From Oryzomonas sp. (lineage in GTDB: Bacteria > Desulfobacterota > Desulfuromonadia > Geobacterales > Pseudopelobacteraceae), in assembly GCA_031292255.1 (NCBI GenBank), contig JARLHN010000044.1, forward strand, positions 1 through 64,000: DNA of 64,000 nucleotides. The letters are read 5' to 3'. Position 1 is the first letter of the stretch; every line of letters begins with the position of its first letter. The translations under genes were made by a program, and so were the position numbers. The notes beneath the pieces were generated by a model. That model had not been told where the DNA came from and searched no databases. It was given only the letters and a program-made list of their open reading frames with translations. Positions 7,224 through 54,275 of this stretch are shown in pieces.

Positions 7224-7650
7224 TGATTGCATCTTTCAAGAGGATGGCTCAAGGATTACGGGACGCGTTGCACGGTAACTTCAGGTGAGTTACTTTTGGG
7301 AGCGCGAAGTGATGCGTCGGCTGAAGTGGCAAGTAAAGCTACGGCTAGTAAAAGATGTGTTGGAGATCGTAAAATTATCTATTTTTTCATTGGTCAACTT
7401 GGCCGACCTACGGTTAGATCGCGCATTAGCCATAATATATTATAGCCAGCCCCCCATCGGATCCTCCATTTCCCAATACTATCTTATATCATTATAACGA
7501 TGTACCGGCAATCCACAGTTGATTGATATACAGACTCATATTCGAAGAGTCCATCCAAATTTCAACTCGAAGGATATACGGAGCTATAACCAATACAAAG
7601 GCATTGCTTGTCTCCCCCTTTTGTAATAGGGGGGAATTCTGAATCCAAAC
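7224..7650. other. 427-bp intergenic stretch with no supported gene
   Basis: AT-rich spacer between the zinc-ribbon protein and the pseudouridine synthase. It contains open stretches (e.g. plus strand 7285-7497) without a ribosome site or recognisable product, and a short repeat piece CCCCCTTTTGTAATAGGGGG near 7613-7633, related to the palindromic ends found inside nuoG and the glycerate kinase gene. Confidence 0.5.
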
Positions 7651-8946: not shown

Positions 8947-8964
8947 GATGTTTCTCCTTGGAAC

Positions 8965-9073
8965 GCGCCTTTTCCGCAATCCCGGCGTTGACCTTCAGGA
9001 TGCTTTCGTGCGGCGTAGCGCTGCTACGCCTCCTCGGCATCCCTCGGTCGCCTTGGCCTTGCGAAAAAATCGC
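8965..9073. repeat. 109-bp inverted repeat, left copy, flanking hisG
   Basis: Reverse complement of the segment at 9991-10099 with three mismatches by eye. Contains an internal palindrome GGCGTAGC-A-GCGCTACGCC and ends GCGATTTTTTCGC, itself a short palindrome. The two copies bracket hisG exactly, leaving only 6 bp to the hisG stop on this side. Confidence 0.85.
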
Positions 9074-9079
9074 GTTCCT

Positions 9080-9955
9080 CTAAATGATTTTATTTAAAGG
9101 ATACTCGATGATCCCCTCCGCCCCCAGTTTCAACAACTCCGGAACAATACGACGCACCTCTTTCTCGGACATGATGCTCTCAATGGAGAGCCAGTCGGAG
9201 TTGAAAAGGTGCGAGACGGTCGGATTCTTCAGGCTGGGCAGGACCTTGGTGATGGCCTCGATCCGGTCGGCCGGGGCGTTCATCTTGAGACCGACCATCC
9301 CCTCGGCGGCCAGGGAAGACTTCAGGAGTGTGGCGATCTGTTCGATCTTCTCCCGCTTCCAGGGATCGTCCCAGGAGGCCTTATTGACGATCATGACCGG
9401 CACGGACTCCATCAGGTCGCAGACGATGCGCAGGCCGTTGGCCTTGATGGTCGATCCGGTCTCGGTCACCTCCACGATGGCGTCGCACAGGCCGTCAACT
9501 ACCTTGGCCTCGGTGGCGCCCCAGGAGAACTCTACGTTCACCGGAATGTTGCGTTCGGCAAAGTAGCGCTTGGTGAAACCGACCAGTTCCGTGGAGATAG
9601 TGGCCCCGTGCAGGTCTTCCGGCCCCTGGACCTTGGAGTTTCCGGCCACCACCAGCACCCAGCGGGCCGGGCGGCGCGACACCTTGGAATAGACCATCTC
9701 GCAGACCTCGACCACATCCGCCTGGTTTTCCCTGACCCAGTCGCGGCCGGCGATCCCGGCGTCGATGGTGCCGCGCTCCACATACTTGCCCATCTCCTGA
9801 GGACGGATCAGTTTGCAGTTCATCTCGCTATCGTCAACGCCGGGGAAGTAGCTGCGGGACGAGATGCTGATCTGCCAGCCGGACTTGCTGAACAGCTCGA
9901 CAGTGGCGTTTTCCAGGCTCCCTTTAGGTATACCAAAGTTCAAAATATTAGGCAT
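9080..9955 (-). CDS. hisG: ATP phosphoribosyltransferase, long form
   Basis: 291 aa; first step of histidine biosynthesis (ATP + PRPP to PR-ATP). Recognised by the N-terminal [19 protein letters not shown], the PRPP-binding block [13 protein letters not shown] and a C-terminal regulatory domain (about 215-291) typical of the long, hexameric, histidine-inhibited form that needs no HisZ. GAGG site upstream of ATG. hisI lies just upstream in the same direction, separated by one arm of the 109-bp inverted repeat. Confidence 0.95.
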
Positions 9956-9990
9956 AACAACCTCGCATGATGTCGATTTTGTTGATGGAT

Positions 9991-10099
9991 GCGATTTTTT
10001 CGCAAGGCCAAGGCGACCGAGGGATGCCGAGGAGGCGTAGCAGCGCTACGCCGCACGACAGCACCCCGAAGGTCAACGCCGGGATTGCGGAAAAGGCGC
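9991..10099. repeat. 109-bp inverted repeat, right copy, flanking hisG
   Basis: Inverted partner of 8965-9073. It fills the 146-bp space between the hisI stop (10102) and the hisG start (9955), so it would be transcribed between the two genes and could form a strong internal stem-loop. Confidence 0.85.
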
Positions 10100-10101
10100 A
10101 T

Positions 10102-10482
10102 TCATCCCTTCTTATAGACTTCGTCCGGGTTGAAGAGGGGGTTGCTATGCTCCACCCACTGTCCATCCTCCCACCGGACATAAAAACAACTGCGGTTGCC
10201 GGTATGGCAGGCGGCCGGGCCGTTCTGCTTGACCTTGATCACCACGGTGTCGGCATCGCAATCGGTCAGCACCTCCATAACCTCCTGGGTGTTGCCCGAC
10301 TCCTCGCCCTTCATCCAGTACTTGTTGCGGGTGCGGCTGAAAAACCAGGTCTTGCCGCTCTCCAGGGTCAGGTCCAGGGTCTTCTTGTCCATGAAGGCCA
10401 CCATCAGCACCTCGCCGGAGGCGTAGTCCTGGATAATGGCCGGGATCAGGCCGCCCATCTTGTCGAAATCGATCTGAATCAT
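10102..10482 (-). CDS. hisI: Phosphoribosyl-AMP cyclohydrolase
   Basis: 126 aa, single-domain HisI; opens the purine ring of PR-AMP in histidine biosynthesis. Metal ligands are visible in DCDADT and the Cys motif CHTGNRSCF; the [19 protein letters not shown] block is characteristic. No HisE domain is fused. It precedes hisG on the minus strand. Confidence 0.95.
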
Positions 10483-18563: not shown

Positions 18564-20636
18564 ATGCCGAAACTGATTATCGACGACATACCGGTTGAAG
18601 TCCCCGACGGGACCACAGTGCTCGAAGCGGCCCAGTCGGTGGATATCCCCATCCCCCACTTCTGCTGGCATCCCGCCTTGGGCAAGGCCGGCGCCTGCCG
18701 GGTTTGCGCCGTGAAGCTACTGGACGGCCCGGTCAAGGGGGTGCAGATGTCCTGCATGCTGCCGGCCATGGACGGCATGGTGGTCTCCACCACCGACGAC
18801 GAGGCGGTTGCCATGCGCAAGAGCGTCATCGAGTGGCTGATGATCAACCACCCCCACGACTGCCCGGTCTGCGACGAAGGAGGCGAGTGCCAGTTGCAGG
18901 ACTTCACCATCGCGGGGGGCCACGGCATCCGGCGTTACGACGGCAGGAAACGCACCTACCGCAACCAGTACCTGGGGGAGTTCATCGAACACGAGATGAA
19001 CCGCTGCATCCAGTGCTACCGCTGCACCCGATTCTACCAGGAGTACGCCGGCGGAACCGACTTCGGCGCCATGGGGAGGGCCGCCATCGTCTACTTCGGC
19101 CGCCAGGACGACGGGCCGCTGGAATCCCCCTTTTCCGGCAACCTGGTGGACATCTGCCCCACCGGAGTCTTCACCGACAAAACCGCCCGCTTCCGCGCCC
19201 GTTACTGGGACTACGACATGGCCCCTTCGGTCTGCCCTCACTGCTCCCTGGGGTGCAACACCGTCCCTATGGCGCGCTACCGTGAACTGCTCAAAACAAC
19301 GGCCCGCAGGAACGACAGCGTCAACGGCTGGTTCATCTGCGACAAAGGCCGCTTCTCCAACGCCGGCGTCAATGCTCCGGAACGGCCGCGCCAGGCTCTG
19401 GTGGGCGGAAAGCCGGTCAGCCTGGCCGAGGCCCTGGACGCCCTTGCGACGCTCCTGGGAGAGTTTCTGGAGCTGCACGGCCCGGAAAGCCTGGCCATCG
19501 TGGGTTCTCCCCGCATGGACCTGGCTGGAAACATCATGGCGGCCCGTTTGAGGGAGATGCTCGGTGCCGGGACACTCTGCCTGTTCAATGAAACGGACCG
19601 GGCCGAACTGACCGGCAAGGCGGTCTCTCTGCTGACAACGGAAAACAGCTCCTCCCAGGAGGACATGCGCAACGCCGACCTGATCGCCCTTGAGGGGTGC
19701 GATCTCCTGGACGAGGCTCCAATGATGGCCCTGGCCGTGCGCCAGGCATGGCGAAGCGGGGCGCGGGTGTACATGGTGGGGACGCAAAACGAGATACAAT
19801 CAGCCATGGCTCCCCCCTTTACAAAAGGGGGGCCGGGGGGGATTTTGCAGCAGGACCAAACGGCAAATCCCCCTCAATCCCCTTTAGGTCCCAGAGGGTC
19901 CTTTGTCAAAGGGGGACATAATCGAGAGGCAACCGCCCTTCCCTTCGCATTCGAGCAGGTCGCCTCCCTGGCCGACGTGCCGCTGGCAGAGGCCAAGCGC
20001 CCGGTCATTATCTGCGGAGCCAGCCGCACTGGGCTGGAGTCCATAGGAGAGATCCTGTCAGACTCCACTGCCTCCTTTGATAAAGGGGGACTTCAACCGG
20101 CACTGAAACTGGCTTTTATCCTGGACGGCCCAAACGCCTTCGGCTGCGCCGAACTGGCCCGCCGGCACCATGGCGTGGCCCTGTCAACGGCCCTGGCCGA
20201 TGGCCGGATCAAGGGAATCATCTCCTTTGAGGCCGACCTCTCCCACGATCTCCCGCAAGGGATCACCGTGCTCGGCGCTGCAGACTGGCGGCCGACCGGA
20301 CTCATGACGCGGGCCGGGGTGGTCCTCCCCACAACCACCTGGGTGGAGCAGGAGGGCATCTTTGTCAACAACGAGGGGCGCGCCCAGCGCTTCAAAAAGG
20401 TGATGAACCCCGGCCTTCCGATCAAGGGGCTCACCCCGGAGCTACACCCACCACGGGTGCACGGGATAGACGCGCCCGGAGGCGACGTGGCCCCATCCGC
20501 ACGGCTCATTGCCATGCTGATGCAGCGCCTGGGCGAAACCATGGCGGTTGAACCGCTGAGCGGGCCGTGGGAAACACTGAAGGATCTGGATGCCACGGGA
20601 GCCGGCGTCATGATCCACAAGGGAGAACAGGAATGA
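18564..20636 (+). CDS. nuoG: NADH dehydrogenase subunit G, with in-frame repeat insertion
   Basis: 690 aa. N-terminal ferredoxin-like [2Fe-2S] domain (HFCWHP..GACRVC..MSC), His-Cys 4Fe-4S (HPHDCPVCDEGGECQLQD), 4Fe-4S (CIQCYRCTRF) with a later CPTG, and the N7-like CPHCSLGCN before a molybdopterin-oxidoreductase-like domain. Residues 416-452 (PPFTKGG... to FVKGG) are encoded by a palindromic repeat and have no counterpart in the family; residues around 502-508 (SFDKGG) are a second half-copy. The repeat sits in the catalytically inactive C-terminal domain. The C-terminal domain is otherwise intact and the frame is open throughout. Confidence 0.93.
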   Translation: MPKLIIDDIPVEVPDGTTVLEAAQSVDIPIPHFCWHPALGKAGACRVCAVKLLDGPVKGVQMSCMLPAMDGMVVSTTDDEAVAMRKSVIEWLMINHPHDCPVCDEGGECQLQDFTIAGGHGIRRYDGRKRTYRNQYLGEFIEHEMNRCIQCYRCTRFYQEYAGGTDFGAMGRAAIVYFGRQDDGPLESPFSGNLVDICPTGVFTDKTARFRARYWDYDMAPSVCPHCSLGCNTVPMARYRELLKTTARRNDSVNGWFICDKGRFSNAGVNAPERPRQALVGGKPVSLAEALDALATLLGEFLELHGPESLAIVGSPRMDLAGNIMAARLREMLGAGTLCLFNETDRAELTGKAVSLLTTENSSSQEDMRNADLIALEGCDLLDEAPMMALAVRQAWRSGARVYMVGTQNEIQSAMAPPFTKGGPGGILQQDQTANPPQSPLGPRGSFVKGGHNREATALPFAFEQVASLADVPLAEAKRPVIICGASRTGLESIGEILSDSTASFDKGGLQPALKLAFILDGPNAFGCAELARRHHGVALSTALADGRIKGIISFEADLSHDLPQGITVLGAADWRPTGLMTRAGVVLPTTTWVEQEGIFVNNEGRAQRFKKVMNPGLPIKGLTPELHPPRVHGIDAPGGDVAPSARLIAMLMQRLGETMAVEPLSGPWETLKDLDATGAGVMIHKGEQE
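19809..19917 (+). repeat. Palindromic coding repeat (family F) inside nuoG
   Basis: Starts CTCCCCCCTTTACAAAAGGGG and ends CCTTTGTCAAAGGGGGACA, i.e. two inward-facing palindromic ends. Compared with the copy inside the glycerate kinase gene (41608-41698) it carries six extra codons at 19884-19901 (TTAGGTCCCAGAGGGTCC), a module that also occurs alone in intergenic repeats near 5930, 34420, 51090 and 54235. Confidence 0.85.
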
Positions 20637-25539: not shown

Positions 25540-25970
25540 TGGGCCTGCGACGGGAAGCACGCGAACTGGCGCTGCAGATACTCTATGCCCTGGACGCCAA
25601 CCCGGCCACCGGTCTGCGCGAAACCCTGCAAACTTTCCGCGAGGAGCAGAGTGACATCCCGGCCACAATCAGGGAGTTTGCCGAGGGGCTGGTGTTGGGT
25701 GTACAGGAGCACCGCGAGGCCATAGACACGGCCATCAAGGCCCGCTCCAGGAACTGGACCCTGGCCCGAATGCCGCGGGTGGACCTGAACGTCATGCGCC
25801 TGGCATCCTTCGAGTTGATGTTCAGGAACGACATCCCCAAGAAGGTCACCATCAACGAGGCCATCGAGATCGCCCGCCGTTTCGGCGACAAGGATTCTCC
25901 GGCCTTCGTGAACGGCATCCTGGACGAGATCGAGGCATGCGCCAAAGCCGAGGAGCCGGCGGAAGACTGA
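25539..25970 (+). CDS. nusB: Transcription antitermination factor NusB
   Basis: 143 aa, all-helical Nus[17 protein letters not shown] at the N-terminus and [34 protein letters not shown].. block. It binds boxA RNA with S10 in rRNA antitermination. Coupled to ribH; followed by a family A repeat before hom. Confidence 0.95.
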
Positions 25971-25979
25971 AAACACAAT

Positions 25980-26084
25980 CTGCCACGGAGACACAGGGAA
26001 AATCAAAGACAGAATTTTGATAATTACTCCTGGTAAAATATGTAGCGTCTTGACGTTCTCCGTGTCTCCGTGTCTCCGTGGCAG
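25980..26084. repeat. Dispersed repeat, family A, perfect terminal inverted repeat
   Basis: Ends CTGCCACGGAGACAC and GTGTCTCCGTGGCAG are an exact 15-bp inverted pair; the right end has an extra GTGTCTCC unit. About 105 bp lie between nusB and hom. In RNA it would form a long hairpin. Confidence 0.85.
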
Positions 26085-27427: not shown

Positions 27428-27450
27428 GGGCTTAAAAACAAACTGACAAT

Positions 27451-27541
27451 CTGCCGCGGAGACACGGAGAATGTCGAAGGCAGAACCTGATTTAATAGAG
27501 GAGAACAATAGTTCCCCGGTGTCTCTGTGTCTCCGGGGCAG
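27451..27541. repeat. Dispersed repeat, family A, between hom and trpB2
   Basis: CTGCCGCGGAGACACGGAGA at the left and GTCTCTGTGTCTCCGGGGCAG at the right; a 91-bp near-palindrome. The same end sequences bracket the nusB-hom gap. Confidence 0.85.
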
Positions 27542-28939: not shown

Positions 28940-28954
28940 TACGAAAACAGGCAG

Positions 28955-29030
28955 TCTGCCACAGAGACACGGAGAACGTCACAGACAAGGATATCAAATA
29001 GTTCCTTCCCCCAGCGGGGGGAGGGTACTT
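28955..29030. repeat. Half family A repeat with GC-rich module
   Basis: CTGCCACAGAGACACGGAGAACGTCACAGACAAGG, then TTCCTTCCCCCAGCGGGGGGAGGG; no right arm. Fills the junction between trpB2 and trpF. Confidence 0.65.
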
Positions 29031-33780: not shown

Positions 33781-33819
33781 GGGTCCTTCCCCCTCACTTG
33801 ACGGGAGGGAGAAGGACCC
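33781..33819. terminator. Strong hairpin after pta
   Basis: GGGTCCTTCCCCCTC, short loop, GAGGGAGAAGGACCC with one mismatch, 20 bp after the pta stop; no T-run. Continues into CTCTGGTGCCTGAAGGGA, a variant of the GGTCCCAGAGGG module. The remaining bases to 34071 hold no supported gene. Confidence 0.55.
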
Positions 33820-34071
33820 TCTGGTGCCTGAAGGGACTTCCCGAAACAGGTAATGTTGCAAATTGCCGGTGCCCCAACCATTGCCCCCTTGAAAGTCTCT
33901 ACCAAAATGTACTAGTTATCCTCTGTAATGATACATCAGCCGACTAAGCAAACAAGTCTTTGTAAAAATTGAGTTTTCCATGGGCCCACCTGTGGGACGC
34001 CCCCTGTTCGCATGATGATGTTTTGACCTGCCCCCAATCCCTGTTAAAATTTCCTTGAAAGGAAGATCTCA

Positions 34072-34371: not shown

Positions 34372-34417
34372 CTTTCCAGACATTGAACGCAAAATATTCT
34401 GGCACACCGAAAAATCC

Positions 34418-34505
34418 CTTAAGGCCCCAAAGGGTCCTCCCCCCAGCGGGGGGAGGTTAGTCAGGTTGCAACCTTCTTCCCCCTCCCTAACCCGCTGGAG
34501 GAGGG
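34418..34505. repeat. Composite GC-rich repeat between convergent genes
   Basis: Contains TTAAGGCCCCAAAGGGTCCT (family E module), CCCCCCAGCGGGGGGAGG, then a loosely inverted second half TTCCCCCTCCCTAACCCGC TGGAGGAGGG. Lies between the small secreted gene and queC on opposite strands; may act as a bidirectional terminator. Confidence 0.6.
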
Positions 34506-39856: not shown

Positions 39857-40537
39857 CTACAGATCGATATTTTCCTGAAACGAGAGCTGCATGCTGTTCA
39901 GCTCCAGGGCCGCGAGGTATCCCATGTCGGGCTTCCGGGCGGTGACGCAACCGTTGTCCAGCATGATCTTGTCACTGTACAGCGAGGCTTCGAGCCGTTG
40001 CCGCGTCACCATGGTATGGCCGCACACCAGCCGTCTGCCGCCGATGCGTTGCCGGTCCACCACATCGGATCGGGTCCAGAGCATGGCGCCGGTGTCGTCA
40101 TAGGGGTCGAAGGGGGGCGTCAACTCAAAGTTGAGGCCGGCATGGACGATGACGAAGTCGTCCAGCAGCACGTAGTAGGGAAGAGAGTGGAGGAGATGCA
40201 GGTAGCGGTGGGGGATGTCGCCCGGACCATCGGCCTGGAAACTTTCCAGGGTGGCCAGGCCGCCGTTGGTGGCCCACATGTCCATGGCCGACTGGTTGTA
40301 GGGGGCCCGCAGGCACATCTCCTCGTGGTTGCCCCGAACCGACGTGACGTTGAAGCCGGCTGTCACCAACTGGAAGATAAAGTCCAGGACACCCTTGCTG
40401 TCCGGTCCCCGGTCGATCAGATCCCCCAGCAGGTAAAGGCTGTCGCCGGGGGCCAGACTGATCACCCGTGTGACCAGCTGCCGCAGGGTTCGTGCGCAGC
40501 CGTGGACGTCGCCGATGGCGAAGATTCTGGGGGTCAT
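39857..40537 (-). CDS. PPP-family metallophosphoesterase (Ser/Thr phosphatase-like)
   Basis: 226 aa. Metal-binding motifs GDVHG (9-13), GDLIDRG (38-44), GNHE (69-72), then HAGLN and CGHT. This is the bacterial PPP phosphatase group (PrpA/ApaH-like). The ATG overlaps the stop of the glycerate kinase gene by ATGA, giving an operon of nitroreductase, glycerate kinase and phosphatase. Could act on phosphoproteins or dinucleotides; length is short for ApaH. Confidence 0.88.
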   Translation of the reverse strand: MTPRIFAIGDVHGCARTLRQLVTRVISLAPGDSLYLLGDLIDRGPDSKGVLDFIFQLVTAGFNVTSVRGNHEEMCLRAPYNQSAMDMWATNGGLATLESFQADGPGDIPHRYLHLLHSLPYYVLLDDFVIVHAGLNFELTPPFDPYDDTGAMLWTRSDVVDRQRIGGRRLVCGHTMVTRQRLEASLYSDKIMLDNGCVTARKPDMGYLAALELNSMQLSFQENIDL

Positions 40538-41934
40538 GGCATTGTACTCCTGTCGCCTGCTATAAGGATGACCTGCACATCCATCACATTGGTCCCGGTC
40601 GGCCCGCTCTTGAGCAGAGCACCGCAGCGATCCAGCAGCGGGTAAGCGTCGTTGGCCGCAAGGTGGCTCGGCGGGTCGAGCCCGGCGCGCCGGGCCATGC
40701 TGACGGTCTCCCCATCCACCATGGCTCCTGCCGCATCGGTTGGCCCGTCGATACCGTCCGTACCCGCGGACAAGAGGCTGATGCCGGACGTGCCGGCGAT
40801 CTCCAGGGCAAATGAGAGGGCTAACTCCTGGTTGCGCCCTCCTCTGCCGCTTCCCTGGACCGTGACCGTGGTCTCGCCGCCGCTCAGCAGGCAGACCCGT
40901 TGCCCGGCGTGCAGGTTCGAACGGACGCGCAACGCTTCCCTTGCCAGCTGTTTGCCGGCCTCCCGCGCCTCCCCGGCCACGGTTTCCCCCCGGATGTTCA
41001 CCTCCAGCCCCAAGGACCGGGCTGCTGCGGCGGCTGCGGAGAGGGCATCGCCGTTGCGCGCCGCAATGATACTCTCAACCCGTGCGAAGAGGGGATCGCC
41101 CGGCTTGGGGGTCTCGGCCACGGTCCCGGCGCGGCCCTGTTCCAGGCGCAACCGGACAGCCGGAGGCACCCTTTCCGTCAGGCTAAAGCGCTCCAACACC
41201 GTCCAAGCGTCGTTGAACGTAGTCGGGTCGGCCACGGCCGGGCCTGAAGCGATCACGTCCAACCGGTCCCCCGGCACATCCGAGATCATAAGGGAGATGA
41301 CCTGGGCCGGGAAGGCCAGACGGGCCAGTTGCCCCCCCTTGACGGCGGAAAGGTGCTTGCGCACGGTGTTCAGTGCGTGGATATCGGCGCCGGCCTCCAT
41401 CAGGAGTCGCGCCGTAATCCGTTTCTCATCCAGGGTGATCCCCTCCGCCGGGACCGACAACAACGCCGATCCGCCACCGGAGATCAGGAGGAGCAGCAGG
41501 GTGCGCTCGTCGCAGGCCCGGGCCAGCGACATGACGCGGCGGCCCGCCGCCTCGCCGGCGCTGTCGGGGTGGGGATGGCCGGCAGTGACGACTTCGATGG
41601 ATTTAAGTCCTCCTTTGACAAAGGGGGATTGAGGGAGATTTGCCTCTGCGTCATGGGAAGAAATCCCCCCCGCCCCTCCTTTTTTAAAGGGGGGAGTTCC
41701 CTTCGGAGCTATGACCAAGCCGCTGGAGATCAGGTTGCCCAGGCGCTCCTCGGCAGCCAGCGCCATGGGGATGGCCGCCTTGCCGAAACCGGCCACCACG
41801 AGTCGCCCGAACCCCCCGCCGCGATAGCGCTCTCCTGCCCGCTCCAGGTGTCCTCCCAGGGCCGTGCCCGGCTCCACCGCCGCCCGGGACGCCCTGAAGA
41901 GCGCCTCCAGGGTCTGGGTGTCGATGTTCGTCAT
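40534..41934 (-). CDS. Glycerate 2-kinase (MOFRL family) with in-frame repeat insertion
   Basis: 466 aa from ATG at 41934 overlapping the nitroreductase stop. N-terminal DUF4147 domain (VVAGFGKAA, LISGGGSALL) and C-terminal MOFRL domain (LLSGGETTVTV, GTDGIDGPTDAAGA). Phosphorylates glycerate with ATP to 2-phosphoglycerate. Residues about 80-110 (TPPFKKGGAGG to SPFVKGGL) are translated from the palindromic repeat and interrupt the strand pair LVIAPKG...IEVVTAGHP; motifs on both sides are intact, so the enzyme may tolerate the loop. Confidence 0.88.
   Translation of the reverse strand: MTNIDTQTLEALFRASRAAVEPGTALGGHLERAGERYRGGGFGRLVVAGFGKAAIPMALAAEERLGNLISSGLVIAPKGTPPFKKGGAGGISSHDAEANLPQSPFVKGGLKSIEVVTAGHPHPDSAGEAAGRRVMSLARACDERTLLLLLISGGGSALLSVPAEGITLDEKRITARLLMEAGADIHALNTVRKHLSAVKGGQLARLAFPAQVISLMISDVPGDRLDVIASGPAVADPTTFNDAWTVLERFSLTERVPPAVRLRLEQGRAGTVAETPKPGDPLFARVESIIAARNGDALSAAAAAARSLGLEVNIRGETVAGEAREAGKQLAREALRVRSNLHAGQRVCLLSGGETTVTVQGSGRGGRNQELALSFALEIAGTSGISLLSAGTDGIDGPTDAAGAMVDGETVSMARRAGLDPPSHLAANDAYPLLDRCGALLKSGPTGTNVMDVQVILIAGDRSTMP
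41608..41698 (-). repeat. Palindromic coding repeat (family F) inside glycerate kinase
   Basis: Read in the gene direction it begins CTCCCCCCTTTAAAAAAGGAG and ends CAATCCCCCTTTGTCAAAGG. Same ends, orientation and reading frame as the copy in nuoG but without the 18-bp nested module. Confidence 0.85.
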
Positions 41935-42518
41935 GGGCAAAACGGTCCTTCGCACACGGTCTGCGCCAGTTTGCGCCGGTCATTGGGGGTTTCCCGCCCC
42001 TGCAACGCCTCCGGCAGATCCTCCATCCGGCCGGGTCGCCCGATGGCCGCCATTGCCTCCACCTGGTAGTCGTCCGGGATGTTCAGGGTCGTCCGGGCCC
42101 GGTCGTAGTCGAACCCCTGCATGCCGTGGACCACATATCCCCGCAGGCACCCCTGCAGGGCCAGGTTCTCCCAGGCGGCCCCGGTATCGTAGGAGTGGGT
42201 GCGGGACGGCTTGCCGTTGTGATCGAAAGTGGTCTTGGAGACCATCACCAGAAGCGCCGCGGCGTTCACGCACCACGCCCTGTTGGCATCCACCAGCAGG
42301 TCGAAGAAGAGCGGCCAGTGCTTGCTGTCGCGGCTGGCATACAGGATGCGCCAGGGCTGGTTGTTGTAAGAGGAGGGCGCCCAGCGGGCCGCCTCGAACA
42401 GCACCATCAAATCCTCGGCAGGTATCTCCTCCCCCGACATGGCGCGGGGCGACCAGCGGTTCAGAAATATGGCATCGATGAGATGATCTGCGTGTCGTTT
42501 GTCGCTGCCTTTGATCAT
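41931..42518 (-). CDS. Nitroreductase family protein
   Basis: 195 aa, FMN-dependent nitroreductase fold: NRWSPRAMSGEEI, ARWAPSSYNNQPWRI, GAAWENLALQG, and AAIGRPGRM. Reduces nitro- or quinone-type compounds with NAD(P)H; true substrate unknown. AGGAT ribosome site. First gene of a coupled three-gene operon (ATGA overlap with glycerate kinase). Confidence 0.9.
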   Translation of the reverse strand: MIKGSDKRHADHLIDAIFLNRWSPRAMSGEEIPAEDLMVLFEAARWAPSSYNNQPWRILYASRDSKHWPLFFDLLVDANRAWCVNAAALLVMVSKTTFDHNGKPSRTHSYDTGAAWENLALQGCLRGYVVHGMQGFDYDRARTTLNIPDDYQVEAMAAIGRPGRMEDLPEALQGRETPNDRRKLAQTVCEGPFCP

Positions 42519-45859: not shown

Positions 45860-46927
<1,068 letters not shown>

Positions 46928-47040
46928 AAACGTAATGATCTCGTCGTGAGCAACGAGATGCGTTTTCGGTTCGTCATTGATCTGATTTTTGACAAAGAAT
47001 GATGTTTCAGCTGGCCGCACAGGCAGATAAGGAGCCCATA

Positions 47041-47172
47041 ATGTGCACTAACTGCAACGAACCCAATAATGAACATAGTATTGCACTACCTGGTCGGTGT
47101 AAAACCCGCACTTTGGGAAACATGGAGGCTGCATTGGATTGGCTTCGACAGCCTGCACCAGAGAGGAGATAA
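47041..47172 (+). CDS. 43-aa Cys-containing small protein, predicted
   Basis: Found by reading the sequence: ATG at 47041 with AAGGAG 8 nt upstream, coding MCTNCNEPNNEHSIALPGRC then KTRTLGNMEAALDWLRQPAPERR and TAA. It ends one base before the cupin ATG, and the cupin ribosome site lies within its last codons, so it may be a leader or a coupled small protein. CxxC at the N-terminus could bind metal. No homologue recognised. Confidence 0.45.
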   Translation: MCTNCNEPNNEHSIALPGRCKTRTLGNMEAALDWLRQPAPERR

Positions 47173-47173
47173 A

Positions 47174-47686
47174 ATGAGATTTGCAGTAATGATTTTGTCG
47201 CTTTCACTTCTTGTGTCGGCAGATTCATTTGCAGGCCGGGCATCAGCCGACGAGGCAAGCAAACCGTCACAAACCATATTTCGGGCCGGTTCTCAGGCCT
47301 CCATCAAAGCACCTGCCAATTATTTTACCGGAAATGTTCGTATTGACCCGCTATTTTATGCGAATGATTCGGTACCCTTTTCCGGTGCGTATGTCACTTT
47401 CGAGCCAGGGGCCAGGTCCGCATGGCACACTCACCCGACTGGGCAGTACCTGTTGGTAACCGCTGGCGTTGGCCGCACACAAGTATGGGGAGGCCCTATT
47501 GAGGAAATCAAAGCGGGAGACGTAATCTGGTGCCCGCCAGGGGTAAAGCATTGGCACGGAGCCGCACCCGCCACTGCAATGACGCATATTGCCATCACGG
47601 GAACACACAACGGCAAGAACGTTGAATGGCTGGAAGAAGTCACCGATGAGCAATACAACGGCAAACAAGGGAGCAAGCATGAATAG
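47174..47686 (+). CDS. Secreted cupin-domain protein
   Basis: 170 aa from ATG at 47174 (AGGAG upstream). Signal peptide MRFAVMILSLSLLVSADSFA, then one cupin barrel with metal-ligand motifs WHTHPTGQYLLV and the second CPPGVKHWHGA. Same family as periplasmic cupins that accompany carboxymuconolactone decarboxylase-like proteins. The next gene overlaps the stop by 8 nt. Confidence 0.87.
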   Translation: MRFAVMILSLSLLVSADSFAGRASADEASKPSQTIFRAGSQASIKAPANYFTGNVRIDPLFYANDSVPFSGAYVTFEPGARSAWHTHPTGQYLLVTAGVGRTQVWGGPIEEIKAGDVIWCPPGVKHWHGAAPATAMTHIAITGTHNGKNVEWLEEVTDEQYNGKQGSKHE

Positions 47687-48410
47687 AAAAATCACCCTGT
47701 TCCTGACAATCATTCTTACCTTGATATTCGGCTTTGCCGCCATTTCGGGAGCACAAACCATGGACAAAAATCAGGCTTTGAGCGCGAAACAGCAAGGTAT
47801 CGTCACCATCGCGGCCTTTACCGCCAAGGGCGATATGGAAAAATTGAAATCAGCTTTGAATGAAGGTCTGGATGCAGGCTTGACCGTGAATGAAATCAAG
47901 GAGATCCTGGTTCAATTGTATGCTTATGCGGGATTCCCGCGCAGTTTAAATGGCCTTGGTGCTTTTATGGGTGTTATGGAAGAACGGCAGAAAAAAGGGA
48001 TTAAGGATGAAGCCGGCAAGGAGGCAAGCCCCTTTCCTGCCAATAAAAGCAGTATCGAGTTTGGAACGGAAATCCAGGCGCGCCTGGCAGGAAAGCCGGT
48101 CACCGGGCCGCTTTTTACATTCGCTCCCGCTATCGATCAGTTTTTGAAGGGACACCTGTTCGGCGATATCTTCGGTCGTGACAATCTGGACTTCCAGAGC
48201 AGGGAGATTGCCACCATTTCGGCTCTTGCCAACATGGAAGGTGTCAACTCGCAACTCCAGGCTCATTTTAACATTGGGTTTAATACCGGGTTGACTGAGG
48301 CGCAGTTGAGGAGCCTGATTTCCGTTCTCAATGCCAAAGTTTGTAAGAAAGAAGGCGAAAACGCCAAAGAGATATTTGGCAAGATTTTAGGCAGCAGAAA
48401 GCCTCTGTGA
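47679..48410 (+). CDS. Secreted carboxymuconolactone decarboxylase-like protein
   Basis: 243 aa from ATG at 47679. Signal peptide to about ISGAQT. Two CMD/AhpD-like helical halves, around 30-105 (GIVTIAAFTAKGD..LVQLYAYAGFPRSLNG) and 160-235 (REIATISALANMEGVNSQLQAH). No CxxC redox pair is present, so it is not an AhpD peroxidase. Periplasmic export of a CMD protein is typical of this cluster type. Reaction unknown. Confidence 0.87.
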   Translation: MNRKITLFLTIILTLIFGFAAISGAQTMDKNQALSAKQQGIVTIAAFTAKGDMEKLKSALNEGLDAGLTVNEIKEILVQLYAYAGFPRSLNGLGAFMGVMEERQKKGIKDEAGKEASPFPANKSSIEFGTEIQARLAGKPVTGPLFTFAPAIDQFLKGHLFGDIFGRDNLDFQSREIATISALANMEGVNSQLQAHFNIGFNTGLTEAQLRSLISVLNAKVCKKEGENAKEIFGKILGSRKPL

Positions 48411-51039: not shown

Positions 51040-51250
51040 GGGGGCAAACGCCGCTGCCCCCGGATATGATCCTCGCCCCCCCCCTGCCCTTTAGGCCCCA
51101 GAGGGTCCTCCTTATCGCGTAGGGAAATATCTGGGTTTATTCCTCCCCTCCTAGCTTAGGAGGGGACGGGGGTGGTAGCCATCCACAGATCACCACCCCC
51201 TGACCCCCTCCTAAACTAGGAGGGGGAAAACTGCGCGTCATTTTATTCAG
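51040..51250. repeat. Composite GC-rich repeat cluster
   Basis: Contains TTTAGGCCCCAGAGGGTCCT (family E module) and two near-inverted CTCCCCTCCTAGCTTAGGAGGGG / CCCCCTCCTAAACTAGGAGGGGG hairpins flanking CACCACCCCC. Fills the gap between the YkgJ gene and the quinone oxidoreductase gene; no coding. Confidence 0.65.
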
Positions 51251-54097: not shown

Positions 54098-54275
54098 GGA
54101 TGAAGGCAGATAACGTCAAAACCATGATGTAACCGGGGTTGGAATCTATCGGTGTGTATCCTATTCATTCCTGTTCCGGACGGCTTTCCAGGTTTTTCCC
54201 TTTAGCTATTGTTTCGCCATCTTCAGCCCCTTTAGGTCCCAGAGGGCCTTCTCGTCGAGAGAGGGGGGGGTAAGA
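54098..54275. repeat. Dispersed repeat B plus family E module
   Basis: AACGTCAAAACC, ATCTATCGGTGTGTATCCTA and CCAGGTTTTTCCC match 8589-8703; followed by CTTTAGGTCCCAGAGGGCC. Occupies the pcm-rpoS gap, where NlpD is encoded in many proteobacteria; no nlpD is present here. Confidence 0.65.

Follow-up and report, generated by a model that had tools for sequence, protein, structure and literature searches.

How does a palindromic repeat come to lie within the reading frame of a conserved gene, and what allows it to stay there? The question is raised by nuoG, which encodes the 690-residue NADH-quinone oxidoreductase subunit G (18564-20636, plus strand; open reading frame, translation and Pfam matches to Fer2_4, NADH-G_4Fe-4S_3, Fer4_Nqo3, Molybdop_Fe4S4 and Molybdopterin). 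The gene is part of the window, the 64,000-nucleotide stretch of DNA that was analysed (C30:1-64000), which belongs to a genome of 3.72 Mb in 44 contigs that is 88% complete. The closest named NuoG loci include those of Geobacter sp. palsa_1151 (82%) and Oryzomonas japonica (76%). A sequence-only reading had placed an in-frame palindromic repeat at residues 416-452 of this protein. The finding is real, and it is more general than first stated.

Element A and module m2 in nuoG and across the genome

The repeat is termed element A here. It extends from hairpin to hairpin over 19812-19915 (plus strand; sequence, genome matches and NuoG comparison) and encodes PPFTKGGPGGILQQDQTANPPQSPLGPRGSFVKGG. 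Residues 416-452 are thereby borne out, while the originally proposed span of 19809-19917 has to be adjusted to the element itself, its given end lying inside codon 452. Element A is a palindromic sequence of ~85 bp in which two CCCCCTTT-NNN-AAAGGGGG hairpins are joined by inverted GGGGGGATTT/AAATCCCCC arms. Hairpin ends and arms form terminal inverted repeats, and both the sequence and the folds display two inverted REP-like hairpins around a short spacer. In the nuoG copy, the left hairpin (CCCCCCTTT ACA AAAGGGGGG, 19812-19832, plus strand) is followed by the inverted inner arms (GGGGGGGATTT ... AAATCCCCC, 19835-19873, plus strand) that surround a variable core, both identified from sequence and DNA fold. 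The right hairpin (CCCC / TTTGTCAAAGGGGG, 19879-19915, plus strand), recognised by comparison with an uninterrupted copy in a glycerate kinase gene, is split by a second module, m2 (CCCTTTAGGTCCCAGAGGGTCCT, 19880-19902, plus strand, 0 mismatches to the pattern). With m2, the copy as delimited measures 104 bp and is composed of separate hairpins. The DNA fold z-scores of A are -3.1 for the nuoG copy, -4.7 for the copy in nuoG of the sister genome G116 (L175) and -0.6 for the glycerate kinase copy. A comparison with known RNA families gave one match (20.4 bits vs a gathering score of 74, E 0.44), which is taken as chance.

A second nuoG copy, missed by the sequence-only reading, lies at 20071-20089 (plus strand). 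This single-hairpin remnant encodes SFDKGGL and is identified by its pattern and by a full element at the equivalent site of L175. The intact L175 copy can be read without a stop over its whole length in two of the three forward frames, which makes the common frame of the A copies less surprising. In an AlphaFold2 model of NuoG, residues 417-455 have a pLDDT below 50 and adopt no secondary structure, between flanking blocks with mean values of 95 (391-400) and 93 (461-470). As no homologue of the insert is present in the alignment and the segments 40-48, 113-131 and 632-635 likewise fall below 50, the model hints only weakly that the insert may be disordered.

Both modules are multicopy in the genome. 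A DNA search with the whole nuoG stretch gives 19 matches at E<=1e-3, and the palindromic hairpin pattern, counted on both strands, has 50 forward and 48 reverse matches vs 1 and 2 for the reversed control. Grouping of the fetched stretches together with the window gives 41 separate A sites, of which 13 carry both hairpins at the chosen threshold. More than half (27/41) fall in no open reading frame of at least 100 residues, as does a lone A hairpin in the window (7614-7632, plus strand). Four sites are located in Pfam-backed genes: the two sites in nuoG, the second being the remnant, one in the glycerate kinase gene and one in cbiA, where A occupies the stretch that links the CbiA domain to GATase_3. 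Ten more fall in unsupported reading frames or upstream of a gene start. Nine reading frames are treated as unsupported (L108, L111, L115, L126, L128 and the second frame of L131, with no Pfam match; L113, L114 and L121, outside the Pfam comparison), and panC (L131) is excluded because the repeat precedes its likely true start. Element A is thus found both between genes and in frame within unrelated conserved genes.

The second gene named by the sequence-only reading encodes a 473-residue protein with DUF4147 and MOFRL domains (40534-41955, minus strand; open reading frame and Pfam), which is named glycerate kinase after these domains and that reading. It does contain element A, oriented with respect to its gene as in nuoG and read in the same PPFxKGG frame (PPFKKGGAGGISSHDAEANLPQSPFVKGG, 41609-41693, minus strand; sequence and pattern). 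The copy is built like that in nuoG, minus the m2 interruption. Hairpin-like short remnants are present at its position in four congeners (two clear, two eroded); the fifth congener provides only a fragment, and six more distant relatives have no insert. In the nuoG and glycerate kinase copies the hairpin spacing is a multiple of three, as it is in only 3 of the 12 two-hairpin copies outside recognised genes of this genome. This phase argument is not relied on, since most genic copies elsewhere were found by a query with both hairpins in one frame and the hairpins are out of phase in the A copies of L303 and L321, whose gene context is unclear.

The 18 bases that are additional in the nuoG copy (TTTAGGTCCCAGAGGGTC, 19883-19900, peptide LGPRGS) belong to m2 and, as proposed, equal a separate module, which matches 42 places of the genome at up to 3 mismatches vs 0 for a reversed-pattern control. 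Further copies in the window are found at 33813-33835 (minus strand), 34416-34438 (plus strand, adjoining a CCCCCCAGCGGGGGG palindrome), 51087-51109 (plus strand) and 54228-54250 (plus strand). The proposal that m2 entered A inside nuoG is not supported. In this genome m2 occupies one and the same internal position of A in nuoG and in L108, L110 and L116, which are outside recognised genes, and it is located in the right end of A in cbiA of G097 (L391), a different genus. The nested state is not peculiar to nuoG of this genome, and the composite need not have arisen there; a single insertion of ready-made A with m2 is the simpler history. The module is also lodged within other kinds of repeat in this genome. 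Elsewhere, with B, C and D denoting further repeat families, nuoG holds it inside a B copy in G118 (L178) and inside a D copy in G110 (L203), and cbiA of G082 (L395) has it within a B-like hairpin. Judged by eye, it resides inside A, B, D and at least two more repeat types, and in A and D it directly follows the CCCC of the terminal hairpin.

The window harbors other repeats as well. A pair of 120-nucleotide inverted repeats (8961-9080 and 9984-10103) is 94% complementary with 903 nucleotides between the arms, and CTGCCACGGAGACACGGAGAA-type repeats at 25969-26011, 27440-27482 and 28945-28987 represent another multicopy family.

For a draft and probably metagenome-derived genome, false joins made by the assembler have to be considered, as repeats can connect unrelated sequence. 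In one contig of G074 (L183, G074:C111), nuoG (46210-47457) runs into a C-family repeat and then into the reversed first half of cbiA (47474-48163); two genes that both bear repeats have here been joined by recombination or by misassembly. In the window, however, the reading frame is open on both sides of the insert in nuoG and in the glycerate kinase gene, and the sister genome has A at the second nuoG site in its own assembly. An assembly artefact is therefore very improbable.

Two NuoG loops and the families that occupy them

In an order-wide search, NuoG relatives were recovered from 140 of 141 genomes. The alignment comprises 109 distinct proteins. By identity, 87 of its rows are Geobacterales-like, and one gene (L043 and L202) appears twice among them. 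Loci with a short frame, frame breaks or a contig end were left out (L183/L064, L196/L036, L198/L061, L245/L072, L249/L074, L076, L084-L087); the break in L245 occurs at a G run and involves no repeat. At site 1, the position of the large insert, A is found in 1 of the 87 genes, B in 5 and C in 3 (L174, L190, L176); this genome carries A with m2, and all five congeners carry B. The NuoG of Oryzomonas japonica (L071) has a B insert. At site 2, A occurs in 3 genes, as a full element in L175 and as remnants in this genome and in L214, and m2 within a D copy in one (L203). Most relatives have no repeat motif at either site. Inserts of at least 8 residues are located at the two sites, close to residue 623 in a loop confined to one clade, and in the C-terminal part, and the internal ones that derive from repeats are those at sites 1 and 2. 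Windows with a motif number 10/87 at site 1, one of them a chance hit by eye, vs 1/1043 elsewhere, and 3/87 at site 2 vs 1/1379 elsewhere; Fisher values overstate these differences, and likewise that for the cbiA linkers given below, because related genes are not independent. Three A-motif hits in nuoG outside both sites are weak and look like chance by eye. At the end of NuoG, m2-bearing repeats form the C-terminal tail in G115 (L172) and G118 (L178) and, reversed, in G114 (L173); the peptide PLGPRGSS is encoded by an exact m2 copy in two of these three tails.

The families differ in abundance, with match counts that may include a palindromic copy once for each strand. B has 54 matches in G115, 47 in G117, 17 in G116, 10 in G118, 8 in this genome and 4 in G114. 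D has 42 in this genome, 40 in G116, 27 in G076, 12 in G110 and 0 in G079, some through its m2 part alone. C is represented by 8 matches in G066 and 9 in G076, mostly 20-35 bp ends, and by fewer or none in five others, with 0 in this genome and G118; as a repeat family it rests on fewer and shorter matches than A, B and D.

An in-frame insert at this place is supported, as no other of the 87 rows has A at site 1. An empty site beforehand is not a necessary part of that history: each of the five congeners has B there, and this genome branches within their group in the tree, paired with G116 (support 100/99) and adjoined by the other four. For the B copy in nuoG of G116, the best match within each of G115, G114 and G117 is the nuoG copy of that genome (90, 88 and 87%), which fits descent from one insertion. 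By parsimony on the tree, the likeliest order of events would be that the genus ancestor had B at site 1, and that ready-made A with m2 took its place in this genome. At site 2, an A copy common to this genome and G116 would have collapsed in frame to one hairpin here. A clean empty site or a target duplication was sought at the insert positions and none could be read in these hypervariable linkers.

Linkers of CbiA and other proteins, and the likely origin of the inserts

Across the family, the A peptide has matches in 35 of 76 genomes at E<=0.01. Matches to cbiA were obtained in 63/76 genomes, and 50 loci, the incomplete L397 among them, were taken for a count of linkers: 31/50 contain A, B or C vs 1/277 equal windows elsewhere in those genes. 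Fused double-ABC proteins provided 31 linkers from 35 loci, four having no readable linker. Here, A occurs in 4/31, and by eye three linkers are C-like, one is B-like, two are eroded-A-like and that of L345 is a tandem repeat. The linker of this genome's own double-ABC protein was inspected and has no repeat. At the m2 position, the linker of G074 has 21 additional bases, which correspond to m2 apart from 1 substitution and 3 extra bases; that of G121 (L336) has 18, whose assignment to m2 depends on position and length alone, since 5/19 mismatches are no better than chance hits in the locus. A long Ser/Arg/Pro-rich linker insert common to L364 (G117) and L366 (G114) may belong to a further repeat family.

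Different repeat families, A, B, C and D, some with nested m2, occupy the two nuoG loops, the CbiA-GATase_3 linker and the double-ATPase linker. Ordinary drift of hypervariable linkers or slippage of low-complexity sequence, with repeat likeness arising by chance, would agree with the differing linker lengths among relatives and with the tandem repeat of L345. It is a negligible alternative, because the inserts match repeats that are present many times elsewhere in those genomes and comparable windows from other parts of those genes almost never contain the motifs; for A, B and D these counts speak against it.

The cbiA linkers additionally retain the palindrome at synonymous positions. In 22 linker peptides of the PPFxKGG type, all 44 proline codons are CCC or CCT (CCG 0/44), vs a CCG share of 629/1153 proline codons in the remaining cbiA sequence. 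Glycine is encoded by GGG in 38/44 cases vs 563/2164 elsewhere, and the loop codon is variable. The palindrome is being kept or renewed at the DNA level, and its preservation in a widespread insert argues against plain neutral decay of a single old insertion. Any of three processes could suffice for the pattern: recent insertion, conversion by other copies, or selection. Selection might act on the mRNA, where hairpins of any family could, for example, slow ribosomes at domain boundaries. The preserved cbiA stems and the inter-domain location of two of the positions (CbiA-GATase_3 and ABC-ABC) speak for such a role. Against it, motif-free cbiA linkers are mostly not unusually folded (only 3/19 reach a within-gene folding rank below 0.2), several A-bearing cbiA linkers lack strong folding as well, the nuoG sites are loops rather than obvious domain boundaries, and most NuoG relatives have no repeat motif there. 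A function as mRNA hairpins is thus improbable and was set aside.

The explanation that we consider probable is that RPE/REPIN-like non-autonomous repeats survive in frame in flexible linkers that are refilled repeatedly (RPE, Rickettsia palindromic element). Element A would be a small REPIN/MITE-like repeat of two inverted hairpins flanking a short core, presumably mobile as a unit, and m2 a second palindromic module lodged in one hairpin of an A sub-family and in other families. Copies of A would disperse across the genome, and genic copies would last where the frame is kept and the Pro/Gly/Lys-rich peptide, presumably translated and probably neutral, falls in a flexible loop or linker. As such tolerant places are few, unrelated families would pile up at them, accumulating, eroding and succeeding one another at identical spots. 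The palindrome kept at synonymous sites of cbiA counts against the neutral part of this reading, and one location against its linker part. In G119 and G102, the A-bearing protein combines MFS, acyltransferase and AMP-binding domains, and the AMP-binding match starts, at profile position 43-46, about where the insert ends, so that A probably lies in an early loop of that domain and not between domains.

A mobilising enzyme was sought through the Y1_Tnp family, and no A or m2 is present in the 5.3-6.8 kb around the three matches in this 88% complete genome. One match is an open frame of 246 residues, one has an internal TAG and one is short and below the cut-off. The longest Y1/RAYT-like gene (L135:2438-3161, G000:C32) possesses its own 24-bp inverted ends (ATAAGGGGACAGGCTACTTATTGA), unlike the palindromes studied here. 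RAYT/IS200 as the mobiliser was accordingly not retained.

Tolerance might be combined with targeting, such that a hairpin resident in a linker serves as landing or recombination site for the next palindrome. The placement of m2 described above, the apparent replacement of B by A at nuoG site 1 and the cbiA stems kept at synonymous sites around a varying loop codon are in line with this. In addition, outer palindromes of two kinds bracket 16/41 A sites (9 and 7) vs 66 and 92 of 2000 positions drawn at random from these stretches. Yet these outer motifs are loose, none of the three genic copies in the window has outer palindromes on both sides, no genic junction is unmistakably palindrome-into-palindrome, and loss followed by independent insertion could yield an equal pattern. 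We regard targeting as possible but less likely than not. A further-reaching form would make certain Geobacterales linkers long-lived docking sites. A resident hairpin would draw in the following repeat or act as its template, unrelated families would take turns in frame, one module would come to lie within another, and renewal of the palindrome would outpace its decay. This is speculative and rather unlikely; if true, selfish DNA would have supplied part of the CbiA and fused double-ATPase linkers and of the two NuoG loops in a large share of the family. The tree with its many site states (empty, A, B, C, D, nested, collapsed) offers a comparative system for how selfish DNA becomes protein and for whether linkers evolve through repeat insertion.

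Relation to known repeat systems

Conserved genes with palindromic repeats in frame are known best from two intracellular groups with reduced genomes, Rickettsia and Wolbachia. Here, environmental bacteria with ordinary genomes have in-frame repeats of several families at common sites in core metabolic proteins. The Wolbachia palindromic elements are reportedly a comparable case, with palindromic repeats likewise between genes and in frame inside conserved genes. The occupation of one linker by several repeat families and the nested m2 look new: no report of multi-family hot spots or in-frame nested modules was found in the literature searched, which lay mostly outside subscription journals and supplementary alignments.

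The in-frame state itself is already known from this group, as multicopy repeats in frame in genes of Geobacter bemidjiensis and G. metallireducens have been described by Aklujkar et al. (PMC2996986; PMC2700814); the parts of these papers that were consulted do not mention hot spots or nesting, and A, B, C and D may be among these repeats or distinct from them. The Chunjie MITE of Geobacter uraniireducens is, like A, a non-autonomous inverted-repeat element of a relative, which is set apart by its description as a 178-235 bp element with direct repeats and intergenic copies (PMC10969869, in the part consulted). REPINs consist, in the portion of the source used, of two inverted palindromic repeats around a short spacer, and their singlets are read as remnants (PMC3116915). 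Element A is alike in this build, and differs in that some copies are genic, many are bracketed by outer palindromes and no RAYT-like gene was found near A or m2 in this 88% complete genome. Rickettsia palindromic elements are palindromic repeats of ~105-146 bp that, according to the sections consulted, occur between genes and in frame in unrelated conserved genes (PMC2229807; PMC10969869). The likeness to them that the sequence-only reading had pointed out, in a different lineage, is upheld at the level of behaviour, with several unrelated families at common insertion spots and a nested module as further differences. Element A is RPE-like in its behaviour and REPIN-like in its build.
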